Shown one piece after another: positions 729 through 13,701 of a stretch of DNA of 38,220 nucleotides. The notes below the pieces were generated by a model. That model did no database searches and was not told the DNA's origin. It saw only the letters and a list, made by a program, of their open reading frames with translations. How positions within the stretch are numbered: position 1 is the first letter of the stretch; each line of letters opens with the position of its first letter. The stretch is from a virus: positions 1 through 38,220 of IMG/VR virus record IMGVR_UViG_3300048837_002355, one strand, 5' to 3'. The position numbers and the translations under genes were made by a program.

Positions 729-950
729 CTACGCCTCGCCTTCGACGTAAGTCAACGTGGGGGCGATGCCCTCGATTGCGTCGTCTCGCACGAAGACGCG
801 CTGGCCCACGGTGGCCTGCCCTCTCGCTTGGATGACGCCACCGCCTGGCAGCTCCACCGTGGCCATGGTGGCGCTGGCGCTGGTGACGGTGCCCACTTGC
901 AGCGGGCGCTCGGGGATCAGGTCGAGGAACTGGCGGTACAGGTTTGTCAT
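729..950 (-). CDS. Small tail-tip protein, last gene of the tail block
   Basis: A 73-residue protein, last gene of the minus-strand late block, 9 bp after the tail-hub gene. It has no signal peptide or membrane segment. The middle (residues 19-60) reads as a small beta-barrel: VGTVTSASATMATVEL, a glycine turn, then VGQRVFVRDDAIEG. That pattern resembles OB-like domains of phage baseplate and tail-tip proteins. Its place immediately after the hub suggests a virion tail-tip or assembly factor. The function is inferred from position only. ATG at 950 is the only sensible start. Confidence 0.75.
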   Translation of the reverse strand: MTNLYRQFLDLIPERPLQVGTVTSASATMATVELPGGGVIQARGQATVGQRVFVRDDAIEGIAPTLTYVEGEA

Positions 951-959
951 TGAGCTGCT

Positions 960-2828
960 CTATGCGTGGGTTTCGAGCTTGATGGTCTGGCGCAGCTTGG
1001 GGCGGCTCCAGACGATCGAGGTGCTGCGCACGATGCCCAGCTTTGGGCTGGGGCTGAGGTAGCGCACGAACTGGCCGGGGACGATCACACCGGTTTCGGG
1101 CAGCACCTGCATGTTGAGGGTGATGTGTTCTTGGCGCCCGGTGTCTGAGAGCGCTGCGATACCGCGCTGGCGGTGCGCTGGGGCATCGGTGATCAGGGGG
1201 TGGGTTGCCTGGGGCGCAATGATGTTGCCTGCGGTGCCGGTCCGGGTAAACGGGCCGAACACGCCGGCGCCCACGCCGCCGACGAACACCCGGTTGTAGG
1301 CTGGGCGGTCGACGTATTGGGTGCCCTCGACCTCGGCGGCGTCTTCGGGAATCTCGAAATCGGGGGTGATGCTGCCCCAGGCCCAGGGCGGCGCGGGGTA
1401 GCGCGGCAAGATGCGCAGCACCGAAGCGGTGGCGTGGGGCTGCACATAACCGCCCACGGATGACGCGATGTCGTTGATTGCGTCGATGTAGCTGCCTTGC
1501 AGCGCCCAGGCGCCTGCGGGCACCTGCCAGTCGTCCAGGCCCCAGTCCACCGCCCAGCCGATGCCCACGCCGTTGATCGTGAGTGCATCTGCGGCCAGCT
1601 GTTGTGCTGTGCGTGCGTTGTCGGGGTTGCCAAAGGACAGCTGGGGCGCCCAGGGAGCGGCCAAAATGGCCGCCTTGCCCTGCCCCGAGACGCTCCAACG
1701 GGTCGGGCTGAAGCGGCGATCGCGGGCAATACTGACCAGCCGCAGGCGAAACGGGGTGCCGTTGACATTGGCCACCACTTCGGCGGGGTCGCCCTGACCG
1801 TCGCGCCCCAAGTGCGCGGCCGCGTCTTCGTGCAGCGATGCCTGCCAGCTCCAGGTCCACGACTGGTGATCGAGCGACATGCTGAAGCTGTGAGCGTGCA
1901 GCTCGGCGCCGGTGTCAACCCGGTGCAGTGTGATGCTGTTGAGCACGATGTAGACCTTTCTGATGGGAACGGTGCTGCCGGCATCGCCCGGCAACAGGCT
2001 TTGGCAGGGATCAACACCAAAAACAATGGCGACATCGCCGGGGCCGCCGGCGTAGGCCAGTGCGCAGAATCGCAGCGAGACAACCGGGCCGGGCGTGGGC
2101 TGGGCGGAGGTGGCTGCGCGCACATAGGCGGGGCCGCTGCGGCTGGTTTGCAGGGCCTGGGCAATGCCCCAGGGCGCAGACAACACCCGGTCTGCGCGGG
2201 CGGCTGGCTGCCACGGCGCACCAACCATGTGGGTCTGCGAAGCGCCTTGCTGCCATGACAGTGGGGCGCGGTGACGGGTGTACTCGGCTTGGCTCCACAC
2301 ACAGGCGGTGCGGGAACCAAGGGCTTGCGTGACGCCCCAGGCCAGGGCGCGCAGCATGCGGGCCACGGTCGCCTGCGCCCACAGCGCGGCGATCTGCTGG
2401 CTCCCGGTTTGCGCCTGACCCCATGTTGTTTCTGCGATGCGCCCCGCCCGCTCGCTGTCGGTCCACGCCATTCGGGTGAGCGCGCGCAGCGGCGCGGCGG
2501 TGACCCAGCGCTGCGGCGAGACCAACCCGGCGGCGGTGGGCTGGCGCCACGGCGCGGCGGTTTTTGCGGTGAGCGGCTTGGACTCTGCGAACGCCAGCGC
2601 GGTTTGCTGGGAAACGCCGCGATGGACCCCGGCGTCTACGTTGGCAACCACCAAACCGCGAAACGCGAAGCGCCCGTTGACGGTGATTGGCTGGTCGCCA
2701 ATTGGCCCCGGCGTGATCGCGCCAAACGCCAGATCAACAACAACCGCCGTGCCGCTCAGCGGTAGGCTGGCCGCGTCAAACTCCAGGTGAACCGCAACAG
2801 CAGGGCCGGGCGTGGGCGGCCAGGTCAC
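960..2828 (-). CDS. Tail hub / tail-tip protein with 14-residue Trp repeat
   Basis: A 622-residue virion protein, probably the central tail-tip (hub) component of a B3/D3112-type tail. Residues 1-70 form a beta-rich start. Residues 81-220 are ten exact 14-residue units, each ending in Trp (W94, 108, 122, 136, 150, 164, 178, 192, 206, 220), with Phe80 in phase before them. Residues from ~245 on resemble a gpD/hub-like fold, with the late segment GRQEHITLNMQVLPETG followed by VPGQFVRYL. The ATG overlaps the stop of the preceding gene (ATGA), showing translational coupling. The family assignment comes from order and general resemblance, so the exact structural role is inferred. See findings for the repeat. 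Confidence 0.75.
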   Translation of the reverse strand: MTWPPTPGPAVAVHLEFDAASLPLSGTAVVVDLAFGAITPGPIGDQPITVNGRFAFRGLVVANVDAGVHRGVSQQTALAFAESKPLTAKTAAPWRQPTAAGLVSPQRWVTAAPLRALTRMAWTDSERAGRIAETTWGQAQTGSQQIAALWAQATVARMLRALAWGVTQALGSRTACVWSQAEYTRHRAPLSWQQGASQTHMVGAPWQPAARADRVLSAPWGIAQALQTSRSGPAYVRAATSAQPTPGPVVSLRFCALAYAGGPGDVAIVFGVDPCQSLLPGDAGSTVPIRKVYIVLNSITLHRVDTGAELHAHSFSMSLDHQSWTWSWQASLHEDAAAHLGRDGQGDPAEVVANVNGTPFRLRLVSIARDRRFSPTRWSVSGQGKAAILAAPWAPQLSFGNPDNARTAQQLAADALTINGVGIGWAVDWGLDDWQVPAGAWALQGSYIDAINDIASSVGGYVQPHATASVLRILPRYPAPPWAWGSITPDFEIPEDAAEVEGTQYVDRPAYNRVFVGGVGAGVFGPFTRTGTAGNIIAPQATHPLITDAPAHRQRGIAALSDTGRQEHITLNMQVLPETGVIVPGQFVRYLSPSPKLGIVRSTSIVWSRPKLRQTIKLETHA

Positions 2829-9126: not shown

Positions 9127-10161
9127 TCAGAACTCCAGGGTGAGGGACAGCGCGGGCACGGTGCCCGCTTTGGCTGTGGTGGTGAGCCAGACCCACGAAC
9201 CAGCCGGAATGGCGGCTGTGGTGAAGCTGGTGACTTCATCGCCAGAGGTGGCGCTGGTGACCAGCGAACCGCCAGCCACGGCCTCGGTACCCAGCGCCGA
9301 CAGATCGGCGGCGAAGCGCACGCTGTAGGCCAGGCTCGGGCTGGCGCTGGCGCCGGGCAGCGCGGCCACGAGCTTGCTCAGCGTGCGCGCCTCGCTGGTG
9401 AAAAAAAGCGCCACCCGCTCGCTGGCGGTGGGCTCGGGCAGAAACAGCGAACGCGCCGGCGTGGGGCCCGGCGGGCCTGAGAGGCCTCGCGGACCCTGCG
9501 CGCCGTCCGCACCTGGCAGACCTTGCGGGCCTTGCGCGCCGTCGGCGCCCGGCAGACCTGGCAGACCCTGCGGGCCTTGCGGACCCTGCGCGCCATCGGC
9601 GCCCGGCAGACCTTGCGGACCCTGCGCGCCATCGGCGCCCGGCAGACCTTGCGGACCTTGCGGGCCTTGCGGACCCTGCGCGCCATCGGCGCCCGGCAGA
9701 CCTTGCGGACCTTGCGCGCCATCGGCGCCCGGCAGACCTGGCAAACCCTGCGGGCCTTGCGGACCTTGCGCGCCGTCCGCGCCTGGCAGACCTTGCGGAC
9801 CTTGCGCGCCATCGGCGCCCGGCAAACCCTGCGGACCTTGCGGACCTTGCGGACCCTGCGCGCCATCGGCGCCTGGCAGACCTTGCGGACCTTGCGCGCC
9901 GTCGGCGCCCGGCAGACCTGGCAGACCCTGCGGGCCTTGCGGACCCGGCACGGCGGGCACGGGGGGCACGAACAGCTTGCCGTCTTGCCCCAGCCCCAGC
10001 GCGTTGGCCGGGTCGCCCGAGATCTGCGCCATGCCCGAGCTGCCCGGCGCGCCGGTGAGGCCCTGCGTGGTGCGCAGCGTGGCAATCGGTTGCGCGCTTT
10101 GGCCCACCGCCTCGGTCGCCAGCGCCCAGGGCTGGCCGCGCTGCATGATGCGTATCTTCAT
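9127..10161 (-). CDS. Collagen-like tail fibre protein
   Basis: A 344-residue protein with a globular N-terminus (~residues 1-67), 54 continuous Gly-X-Y triplets, and a C-terminal beta domain of ~110 residues. The triplets are drawn mostly from GPQ, GLP, GAD and GAQ, arranged in 30-residue blocks in an A-B-A-B-A order. Collagen triple helices are known trimeric stalks of phage fibres. The C-terminal domain, ending in [12 protein letters not shown] and a beta strand, probably gives trimer registration or receptor contact. ATG at 10161 overlaps the previous stop (ATGA). The repeats should be prone to length change by recombination in 90-bp steps. Confidence 0.85.
9469..9954 (-). repeat. Collagen Gly-X-Y coding repeat, 90-bp units
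   Basis: Tandem 9-bp triplet repeats inside the fibre gene, organised as 90-bp blocks (30 residues) of two alternating types, five blocks in all plus a degenerate end. Near-identity between blocks suggests recent duplication by unequal exchange. The repeat has no spacers and is not a CRISPR array. Confidence 0.85.
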
Positions 10162-10499
10162 GGCCGCGCCTGGATCAACAGGCCAATGGTCTCGCTGGCC
10201 AGCACCAGCGCGCGTGCGCCGGTGGCCGCGCCTTCGCGGGTGCATTGCACGTCGCACAGCCACATGCCGGTGGCCCAGTCGCTGCAGGTGCCTGCGCCCG
10301 GCGCCCACAGCTCAAAGCGGCCCTGCGCGCGGTCGATCCACACCAGCGTCATGGCCCGGGTGTCGCCAGACGCTTTGTGTTCGGCGGTGCAGGCCACATC
10401 GACCCCCAGGCCCGAGGCGGGCGCGCCAGCGTCGTCGAGCAACTCGCAGCCAAACCACAGGCTGGTGCCCTGCTTGTAGGTGTGTGTGATGGGTTGCAT
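10158..10499 (-). CDS. First gene of tail-fibre block, small virion protein
   Basis: A 113-residue protein that starts the fibre/tip block. Its strands and turns ([39 protein letters not shown]) suggest an immunoglobulin-like beta-sandwich, as in phage neck, fibre-hinge or BppU-like N-terminal domains. ATG at 10499 is preferred because it lies exactly 33 nt after the late motif at 10530-10549, the same spacing as at the two other late blocks. It has no Shine-Dalgarno sequence. It probably joins the fibre to the tail. Function is inferred. Confidence 0.7.
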
Positions 10500-10588: not shown

Positions 10589-10987
10589 TCAGACCGTCAG
10601 GAAGCGGAAGGTCGGCAGGTACATCAGGGCGGGGGTGATCTCGCCGTCGAGCAGCTTCCACACTGGGCGTGCAGCAAAACCCTTTTGCGCGTGGTCAAAC
10701 ACCACCTGGTGGGCGGTGCCGCGCAGGGTGAGGGTGAGCGTGATGCCGGGCAGGCTGGCCCAGGCCTGCAACGTGTCGCACAGCGCGCGGCTGATCCAGG
10801 CCGCGGTGTCGGTGCCCACCAGCGTGATCGGCCGGCCCGCTTGCTTGAGCGCCACATCGATCAGCAGCGCGCCGGTGGTGCTGTAGGCGCTGGCCTGCTC
10901 CACCGGGCTCCACTCGTATTCGTCCACCCAGTCCAGGCGGTCGCTGATGTGGGCTGTTGTGCCGTTGTGGGTGAGGGTGATGGTCAT
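10589..10987 (-). CDS. Tail protein following the tape measure (distal tail-like)
   Basis: A 132-residue protein starting with ATGA overlap on the tape-measure gene and ending the central late block. The sequence is beta-rich with a charged first third (DWVDEYEWSPVEQ). The middle reads ITLVGTDTAAWISRAL and the end FAARPVWKLLDGEITP, YLPTFRFLTV. Proteins at this position in siphoviruses cap the tape measure or form the distal tail ring. No catalytic motif is visible. The role is inferred from synteny. Confidence 0.7.
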   Translation of the reverse strand: MTITLTHNGTTAHISDRLDWVDEYEWSPVEQASAYSTTGALLIDVALKQAGRPITLVGTDTAAWISRALCDTLQAWASLPGITLTLTLRGTAHQVVFDHAQKGFAARPVWKLLDGEITPALMYLPTFRFLTV

Positions 10988-13701
10988 GACGATGCGCCTC
11001 TGGCTTGGGTGAGTTGTCGCAGCAGCGCCTCGGCATCGCGCTGGCTGCCCGCGTCGGCAAAGCTCAAGCGCGTGGTGCCGGCGCCGGGCAGGGTGATGTT
11101 GCTGACGAATGTGGCGCCCGGGGTGTTTGTGCCCGACGGGCTGCGCTGCTGCACAGCTGGGGTTTGCGCTGCGGGGGCCGGGCGTTCGGCTTCGCGGATG
11201 AAATCATCAAACCTGGTCGCCACATTGGCCCATTCGCGGTCGGATGCAAGCCCTTGCAGGCTGTTCAAGCCGGGAGAAATGGTATTCATGACAGCCTGGT
11301 TGGCTCGTATCGTTGCCAGTGCCGTTTTGAGAAGCGGGACATCTGCATCGCTCAGCGTGTTGTTGTTGAGCTTGTCCCGCAAGCTGAACTGCAACGAGTT
11401 GTCCACTGCGGCACCAGCTTTCCCCATCGCGGTGGGGCCATTGTTCAGCGGGCTCGCGAACTTGTCATTGCCCAGCGGGCTGGCGTACTTGGCGTTGATC
11501 TCGGCGAGCTTTTTGACGTTCGCAGCCGCTTGCTCGGCGCTCAGGCCCAGGCCTTGGTAGCTTTTGGAGGCGTCTTCAGCGGCATTGCCCGCGCCACGGG
11601 TGGCGTCGCGCGCCTCGTTCATTTTTCGAACGATTGTGTTGCCTGCTTTGTCCACCGTGACTTCAAAGCCCTGCGCAGCGGCCTGCGATTTCACGAACGC
11701 GATCGCACCGGCATCGCCCGAGGCAATGGCAGCGTCGGCCATTTTCTTGAACGCCTGCTGCAAGCCGTCGGCGGTGGCTTGCCCGCTGGCCTTGATGGTC
11801 TCGAAATCCTTGCGGCTGTTCTCGGCTGCGGCCTGCAAACTGGCCTGTGTCTTGATGCCCATGCGGGTGAAGGCCGCTTCAACTTCTTCAGTGGTCTGCT
11901 TGGCATCGGTGCCCACCTGAAGGGTGGCCCGGCTCAGCTCCTCCATTTTTTCGGCTGCCAGCTGCCAGTTGCCCATGTTCACGGCGGCTTCGTATTCGGC
12001 GCGCAGCTGCGCCACCGCCAACTTGGCGCTTTCATCGGCGGCGGTTTTGGCTTCGGTGGCTCGGCGGGCCTCGGCGTTTTTCTCGGCCACGGCCTGCAGC
12101 TCTTTGGCCACGGTGCCAATGGCCTGGGCGGCGGCGGTGGCAGCGGGCTGGCTGGCTTGCATCTCACCCGTGAGCCCGGCGAAGCCATCGCGCGCCATCT
12201 GCGCGCCGTCGCTCAGGCCGATGAACGACTGGCGGGCTTTGTCGGCCAGTGCCTCGCTGCTGGCCCAGGTGGCCTCGGCGCTGAGGCGCATGTCATCGGC
12301 GGCGGCTTTGAAGTTGGCCGAGACGCCGCCAAACGTGATCTTGGCCAGCCCATCAAGGATCAGGGCCAGGCCGCTCTGGATGTTGCTCGCTACGCCGGCG
12401 AAGGCCTCGCCCACGGTGAACACCGCCGCCAGCACCGTGTTCACGCCCGCGCTCATGGCGCCCCACACCAGGCGCACCAGGTCGCCCGCCGTCTCTGCCT
12501 TGCTGCGGATGCTGTCAAAGGCCGCGCCCACCTGGTCGGCCGCGTTGCCCAGGCGCTGGGCGATGGCCGCGAAGTCCACCTCGGCGAGGAACTTGCGCGC
12601 CCATTCCAGGCCCGCCTGGAAGCCCTTGGCAATCGCATCGCCAAACCTGCCCACCGTGCCGTCGCTGACCGCATTGCGCAGCGAGCCGGCCAGCTCGTTC
12701 ACCGCATCTTTCAGGATGGGCAGCACCGGTGTGCCCAGCGCAATCTTGAGCGCGTCCCAGCTGCTGCTGAGCGTTTTGGTGGCGCCCGTCAGGTTGTCGC
12801 CCACCTGCTTGGCAAACTGATCGGCGCTGCCCGCGCTCTCCACCAGTTTCTGGCGCAGCGCCTCCAGCGCGGGCACGCCCCGGTTCAACAGCGATTGCAG
12901 CGCAGGCGCGGCTTCGGTGCCCACGGCGCGAATCGCGTCCTTGCCTTTGTCGCCCGCGCCGGCCAGCTGCACCAGCGCGGTCTCGAAGTTGCCGGTGGTG
13001 ATGCCAGCGGCCGCCAGCTCCTTTCGGAAGCTGCTGGCGGGGTCGCCGAACTGGGCCAGGATGGCGTTGAGCGCGGTGCCGGCGCGGCTGGCGTCGATGC
13101 CGCCGTCGGCAAATTTGCCGATGATGGCCAGCGTGCTTTCCAGGCTGATGCCCATGGCGCTGGCCGTGGGCGCGGCGTAGCTGAGCGCCTGGCCCAGGCC
13201 GGTCACGCTGGTGTCGCTGGCGTTGGCGGCCATGGCCAGCAGGTCGGCCACGCGGCCCGCGTCGGTGGCTGCCAGCCCAAAGCCGGCCAGCGAGCGGGTC
13301 ATGATGCTGCTGGCCTCAGCCAGATCGATCGAGCCCGCTTGCGCCAAGTTCAACGTGGCGGGCAGCGCCGCAATCGAATCTTTGGCCGACATGCCCGAGC
13401 GCGCCAAATTGCCCAGCGCCTGGGCCGCTTCGGTGGCGGTGAACTTGGTGCTGGCGCCGGCCTCTTCTGCCGCCTTGCGCAGCAGCTGCATCTCGTCTTT
13501 GGTCGCGCCGCTGACGGCCTGCACATCAGAGAGCTGGGCTTCGAGCTCGGCGGCGCTGGTGACCGCGCCCTTGAACAGGGAGATGCCAAACACCCCGGCA
13601 ATGGCCGCGCCCGCCAGCAGCACCTTGCTTTGCATGCCGCTCAGCGCGCCGCTGAACTCGTCGCGCGCGCGGATCAGAATCTCAATCGGGCGAATCGCCA
13701 T
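10984..13701 (-). CDS. Tail tape measure protein
   Basis: A 905-residue protein that sets tail length and is packed in the tail tube until DNA ejection. Residues ~50-350 match the TP901-type tape-measure core: the coiled region after LSDVQAVSGATKDEMQLL, then TEAAQALGNLARSGMSAKDSI, FGLAATDAGRVADLLAMAAN and GISLESTLAIIGKFADGG. A hydrophobic segment near residue 30 (LLAGAAIAGVFGISL) and one near 430 may insert in the membrane. Long Ala-rich coiled coils follow. With the usual ~0.15 nm per residue the tail would be ~135 nm, which fits a siphovirus. ATG at 13701. Confidence 0.92.
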   Translation of the reverse strand: MAIRPIEILIRARDEFSGALSGMQSKVLLAGAAIAGVFGISLFKGAVTSAAELEAQLSDVQAVSGATKDEMQLLRKAAEEAGASTKFTATEAAQALGNLARSGMSAKDSIAALPATLNLAQAGSIDLAEASSIMTRSLAGFGLAATDAGRVADLLAMAANASDTSVTGLGQALSYAAPTASAMGISLESTLAIIGKFADGGIDASRAGTALNAILAQFGDPASSFRKELAAAGITTGNFETALVQLAGAGDKGKDAIRAVGTEAAPALQSLLNRGVPALEALRQKLVESAGSADQFAKQVGDNLTGATKTLSSSWDALKIALGTPVLPILKDAVNELAGSLRNAVSDGTVGRFGDAIAKGFQAGLEWARKFLAEVDFAAIAQRLGNAADQVGAAFDSIRSKAETAGDLVRLVWGAMSAGVNTVLAAVFTVGEAFAGVASNIQSGLALILDGLAKITFGGVSANFKAAADDMRLSAEATWASSEALADKARQSFIGLSDGAQMARDGFAGLTGEMQASQPAATAAAQAIGTVAKELQAVAEKNAEARRATEAKTAADESAKLAVAQLRAEYEAAVNMGNWQLAAEKMEELSRATLQVGTDAKQTTEEVEAAFTRMGIKTQASLQAAAENSRKDFETIKASGQATADGLQQAFKKMADAAIASGDAGAIAFVKSQAAAQGFEVTVDKAGNTIVRKMNEARDATRGAGNAAEDASKSYQGLGLSAEQAAANVKKLAEINAKYASPLGNDKFASPLNNGPTAMGKAGAAVDNSLQFSLRDKLNNNTLSDADVPLLKTALATIRANQAVMNTISPGLNSLQGLASDREWANVATRFDDFIREAERPAPAAQTPAVQQRSPSGTNTPGATFVSNITLPGAGTTRLSFADAGSQRDAEALLRQLTQARGASS

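Follow-up and report, generated by a model that had tools for sequence, protein, structure and literature searches.

Genes and features at the locus

The window, by which is meant the whole 38,220-nucleotide stretch of viral DNA analyzed here (IMG/VR record IMGVR_UViG_3300048837_002355), encodes on its minus strand a tail hub protein whose N-terminal region carries a periodic array of tryptophans (Table 1). The gene apparently starts with GTG (window positions 2826-2828), as it does in several relatives. Its product is a member of the PHROGs family phrog_6079 (E 1.2e-126), with residues 59-621 aligned to positions 46-603 of a profile of 605; the family description says only 'tail protein' and makes no mention of a repeat. 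No Pfam family was matched by the 622-residue protein. In those relatives whose annotated records were read, the gene after the hub gene is likewise small, and about as long as the one in the window. Gene position alone prompts the guess that the 73-residue product of this gene is a small tip protein of the OB-fold type.

Two further features of the window can be mentioned. The interval from the tape measure gene to the hub module contains a gene (9127-10308, minus) for a 393-residue protein with long collagen-like repeats (PF01391, E 1.8e-28). The first open reading frame (1-477, minus) resembles by eye the C-terminus of an enzyme of the acyl-CoA synthetase type, and for this reason the record probably contains some bacterial flanking sequence and is a prophage.

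Table 1. Features of the tail hub gene and the gene that follows it, in window coordinates.
Feature	Position	Strand	Remark
Tail hub protein with N-terminal Trp array, 622 aa	960..2828	minus	phrog_6079, 'tail protein'
N-terminal hairpin-like motif (xLxF ... xLxFG), residues 8-37	2718..2807	minus	resembles post-array motif
Trp array, 12 aromatic registers (F80, W94-W220, Y235), period 14, last interval 15	2124..2591	minus	
Ten exact 14-residue units, residues 81-220	2169..2588	minus	Trp positions
Hairpin-like motif, second copy, residues 245-273	2010..2096	minus	local alignment; low-confidence AlphaFold strands
gp27/Mu gp44-like hub domain, residues 292-622	963..1955	minus	AlphaFold, Foldseek, VIA
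Gene for 73-aa protein after hub gene, phrog_5076 (unknown)	729..950	minus	PHROGs

The hub domain and its N-terminal extension

An AlphaFold model of the hub protein was built with 52 aligned sequences. Confidence is high from about residue 294 onward, the pLDDT exceeds 90 in nearly every block from residue 301, and Foldseek matches this hub domain to 3d37, 9ki1 and 1wru with a probability of 1.00. Comparison of residues 292-622 with hub structures in VIA gives Z scores of 19.9-22.6 over 288-296 residues; individual values are 21.0 to 9ki1_G, 19.9 to 1wru and 17.6 to 1k28, and the matched proteins include Mu gp44 (Z 21.0), a Mu-like tail protein of Neisseria (Z 21.2) and T4 gp27 (Z 17.6). Residues 292-622 have the tail hub fold of Mu gp44 (gpP) and T4 gp27, which they share over about 290 residues, and the identification of the protein as a tail hub in the earlier note is thereby borne out. 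The known hub domains align with the window protein from its residue 292-297, at about their own residues 1-4, so that residues 1-291, with the tryptophan array, form an extension that is absent from those hubs.

The aromatic register

The tryptophans of this extension are found at residues 94, 108, 122, 136, 150, 164, 178, 192, 206 and 220, ten in a row at a spacing of exactly 14. Phe80 stands in phase before the array and Tyr235 follows W220 at +15, giving the 12 registers from F80 to Y235. When the protein was shuffled 5000 times and every period from 3 to 39 was considered, the longest run of tryptophans was five, reached in only five of the shuffles. Within the unit, Gln is enriched at position 2 and Ala at position 3 (each in five of the ten units), and Ala, Gln and Arg are abundant in the array as a whole. 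The units share on average 40% identity in DNA and 19% in protein, which rules out a recent tandem duplication of DNA as the source of the array. The earlier note had read all of this from the sequence: ten tryptophans at exact 14-residue spacing in residues 81-220, Phe80 in phase with them, Ala and Gln frequent at fixed places, and DNA repeats that have diverged. Each of these descriptions holds.

Conservation across relatives

When viral contigs were scanned with a profile, relatives were found encoded at 344 places, and 80 of these were kept. Among 62 non-redundant proteins, aromatic pairs at a lag of 14 number 235 against 74 expected, and those at a lag of 28 number 234 against 70. A unit profile run over the relatives located 510 units; their consensus is R-[WFYH]-Q-[DE]-[AG]-x-x-L, and successive units are spaced by 14 (280 times), 15 (60 times), 28 (43 times) or 29 (24 times) residues.

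In the clade of the window protein, the aromatic register can be occupied by any of W, F, Y and H. Most members have about 11 registers; the window protein has 12, and its linker after the array is, by eye, about one unit shorter than in the rest of the clade. All 52 aligned members measure 166-175 residues between R70 and P244. A copy number that varies as in fiber shafts is ruled out by this near-constant length and by the count of about 11. Of the check proposed in the earlier note, whether homologues keep period 14 but vary in copy number, the first part therefore holds and the second does not, the number being nearly fixed.

The second clade is represented by alignment A4, which contains 35 hub sequences of the Stenotrophomonas phage S1 type. 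These have eleven tryptophan columns 14-15 residues apart, plus a twelfth tryptophan 8 residues on, and all twelve columns are free of gaps in the 35 sequences. Pairwise identity is 1.00 at nine of the columns, 0.94 at two and 0.73 at one, as against 0.21 at the remaining positions of the array and 0.75 in the hub. Omega in close pairs is 0.17-0.51 for the array and 0.03-0.08 for the hub. Judged from these alignments, the array is a fast-drifting stretch that has retained its tryptophan ladder and the spacing of that ladder. Selection on the spacing, which the earlier note had argued from the window alone, is borne out by the relatives, in which near-invariant and gap-free tryptophan registers persist while other positions drift, and by the lag-14 pairs and the unit spacings.

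The same data bear on another account of the array, namely that it is a disordered linker in which the aromatic register is a relic of an old duplication with no structural role. The rapid drift of the sequence would suit such a linker, as would the low pLDDT of the AlphaFold model over most of residues 1-293. The near-invariance of the tryptophans and the gap-free registers in 35 sequences argue against it, as does the nearly constant length of the array in the window clade although its other positions are near saturation, and we regard it as very improbable.

On either side of the array stands one copy of a short hairpin-like motif of the xLxF/LNLG kind. The similarity between the two copies, expressed as a local-alignment z, averages 6.7 in the S1 clade (n=35) and 2.7 in the window clade, and is 3.1 in the window protein. 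In the second copy AlphaFold places strands at residues 251-255 and 267-271, with low confidence.

Strand or helix

In the S1 clade, with positions counted from the aromatic residue of the unit, aliphatic or aromatic residues are found at -2 in 75% of cases, at +6 in 45% and at -4 in 36%, positions -1 and +1 are polar, and Pro or Gly occurs at +4 (38%), -1 (33%) and +1 (32%). Position -2 is the most hydrophobic position other than the tryptophan itself in both the S1 and the Shewanella clades. The hydrophobic moment over positions -5 to +1, taken at 180 versus 100 degrees, is 0.82 versus 0.26 in the S1 clade, 0.68 versus 0.45 in the window clade and 0.65 versus 0.29 in the window protein alone; when the aromatic column is set to the mean, the window array loses its strand preference (0.48 versus 0.52). 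Overall, hydrophobic residues alternate as in a beta strand, at -4, -2 and 0, and are accompanied by a Pro/Gly turn, a residue pattern that favors strands over a helix.

The earlier note had instead proposed a four-turn helix that builds a solenoid or a coiled-coil-like bundle. A helical bundle or coiled coil would carry a tryptophan in every second heptad, and it draws on the fact that 14 is two heptads, on the abundance of Ala, Gln and Arg, and on the AlphaFold model of the window protein, in which residues 112-186 form a continuous helix with a pLDDT mostly of 70-79, including over residues 121-170. This modeled helix, however, covers the part of the window array that is rich in Ala and runs longest without proline, and in 48 of the 52 aligned sequences (the window protein, itself without proline there, being counted among the 52) proline occurs within the same columns. 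The median array in these sequences contains 5.5 Pro and 9 Gly, and the freedom from helix breakers that a coiled coil needs is not found in the 48. Hydrophobic a/d heptads were sought in the arrays of the three clades and did not emerge: heptad templates rank from 95 to 286 of 286, in no clade better than roughly one third down the list. Furthermore, position -2, with its high hydrophobicity in the S1 and Shewanella clades, would lie on the face of a helix opposite to the tryptophan. The helical proposal is thus not supported and is distinctly unlikely; for the window protein by itself a helix is a possibility, given the pLDDT of its model.

For the S1 clade, AlphaFold predicts seven-residue strands at 100-106, 115-121, 129-135, 143-149 and 157-163, spaced by 14-15, with a pLDDT of about 35 on the strands and about 30-37 over the array. 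The predictions are accordingly split between the two clades and weak on the array, and neither model settles the fold. A Foldseek search with the S1-clade model gave only hub matches among the matches listed.

The predicted strands also bear on a monomeric beta-solenoid, with 14 residues in each coil and a ladder of tryptophans stacked inside. Their equal phase in successive S1 units would be expected of such a solenoid, as would the strict unit length, with 15 only occasional, and residue preferences that keep the same phase from unit to unit. Intrachain solenoids are usually among the easier targets for AlphaFold, and the very low confidence on the array counts against this fold, which we consider unlikely.

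Comparison with known repeats

The array resembles the triple beta-spiral of the adenovirus fiber shaft and reovirus sigma1 in having a short tandem unit in what is presumed to be a trimer. The consensus of the spiral places hydrophobic residues at c, e, g, k and m, with Pro or Gly at j (PMC3150272). With the aromatic residue set at g, a placement chosen post hoc, the other four hydrophobic positions, compared with all choices of four positions, rank 3 of 715 in the S1 clade and 5 of 715 in the window clade; with the same post hoc choice, the rank is 95 of 715 in two Shewanella phages and 155 of 715 in the window protein alone. Pro or Gly at j (+3) reaches 0.44 in the Shewanella relatives (rank 2 of 14); elsewhere it is 0.17-0.18, with peaks at other positions. 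The spiral has a unit of 15 residues, which in the array is a minority spacing beside 14. Unlike the spiral, the array has a nearly invariant aromatic residue in each unit and lacks a consistent Pro or Gly at j, and its copy number is near-constant whereas that of adenovirus shafts varies. The relation is one of resemblance and not of membership.

Tape measure proteins provide a second comparison, as they too are phage tail proteins with tandem units and Trp or Phe at fixed spacing. Their W/F markers recur with a period of 11 and in variable copy number (Belcaid et al. 2011, PMC3271669), whereas the array has a period of 14 and is found in a hub gene. The tape measure protein of the window itself (10984-13701) has six tryptophans, none of them periodic. 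These markers are the precedent for a rather unlikely reading in which the array is a docking string: each aromatic residue would plug a pocket of a repeated partner, such as a tail ring, a fiber subunit or an assembly chaperone, and only the chain length would matter in between. The W/F anchors are reportedly bound by small auxiliary proteins (PMC3271669), and a docking string would explain why aromatic residue and spacing are strictly kept while the remainder drifts to 21% identity, and why AlphaFold has low confidence in the monomer. Yet the often aliphatic positions -4, -2 and +6, with polar -1 and +1, suggest that each unit has a packed structure of its own, and the similar arrays in other kinds of phage protein, described below, would each need such a partner.

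Searches for a described counterpart gave little. The sequence of the window protein matched no solved structure, the A2 profile matched a single solved structure, a GABA receptor, which was taken as chance, and Pfam over 52 relatives yielded two single weak matches, likewise taken as chance. In the literature searched for a 14-residue tryptophan repeat, no description was found. The Trp-14 repeat thus appears to be undescribed in the libraries and papers covered.

A proposed fold for the array

Of the structures that could underlie the register, we favor, with somewhat less than even confidence, a beta stalk of fixed length with a tryptophan core, probably trimeric and fused to the gp27/gp44 hub. 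According to this proposal, a hub of the gp27/gp44 family and of siphophage type bears an N-terminal extension of about 290 residues, the core of which is the 14-residue repeat. Each unit would contribute one aromatic residue and a short beta strand from about -5 to 0, with the side chains at -4, -2 and 0 pointing inward; the strand would lead into a turn rich in Pro and Gly from +1 to +5, followed by a second short strand with an inward aliphatic residue at +6. Hubs of this family are trimeric in the known structures, and three arrays would therefore probably wrap around each other. They would form a fixed-length stalk or collar that is similar to a triple beta-spiral and has a core of stacked aromatic side chains. 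The 14-residue register and its conservation are established here, as are the almost constant length, the duplicated flanking motif and the hub fold; the beta structure is suggested by the residue pattern, and the intertwining and stalk function by analogy.

If correct, this would provide a working description for the N-terminal half of the proteins in a phage tail family that is widespread and labeled only 'tail protein'. It would also mean that a long structure can be specified by a single aromatic residue together with a fixed chain length, the residues between being nearly free. As a minimal rule for designing a fibrous fold, this would make a clean test case for the prediction of structure from sequence, as prediction is split here.

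Arrays in other phage proteins

Viral contigs were also scanned for six Trp codons 42 bases apart, and the open frames were then read. Among the matches listed, Trp-14 arrays without a recognized hub occur at six loci (L296, L320, L274, L253, L287 and L251), and in L287 the array sits after a phosphoesterase domain. The phrog_6079 profile matches three of these free-array proteins (L296, E 1e-13; L320, 6e-10; L287, 8e-8), and single-sequence hhalign of hub profiles against free-array proteins gave no significant match. It is possible, if doubtful, that the Trp-14 repeat represents an undescribed fibrous fold, a beta stalk of stacked tryptophans tolerating almost any sequence in between, and that it serves as a module of several kinds of phage virion protein, one that precedes tail hubs and follows lectin-like or phosphoesterase domains. 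Were this so, the register would provide a simple sequence signature by which such parts could be recognized in further phage proteins.

The protein at L251 (2432-5941) has 1170 residues and begins with many LxLxW units of period 14; the region after them matches no PHROG. In L253, L274 and L287, a gene for a phrog_13135 protein of about 170-180 residues and unknown function is found within about two genes of the free array, and its product is a possible partner of the array. Repeats of 14 residues of the 'SANWNSVYTTV' type, found in large tail-fiber-like proteins (L276, L269 and L312), were set apart as a different kind, as heptads fit them by eye. The tail-fiber-like proteins at L276, L269, L312 and L267 carry this different 14-residue repeat, NSANWNSVYTTV, which by eye fits a heptad coiled coil.
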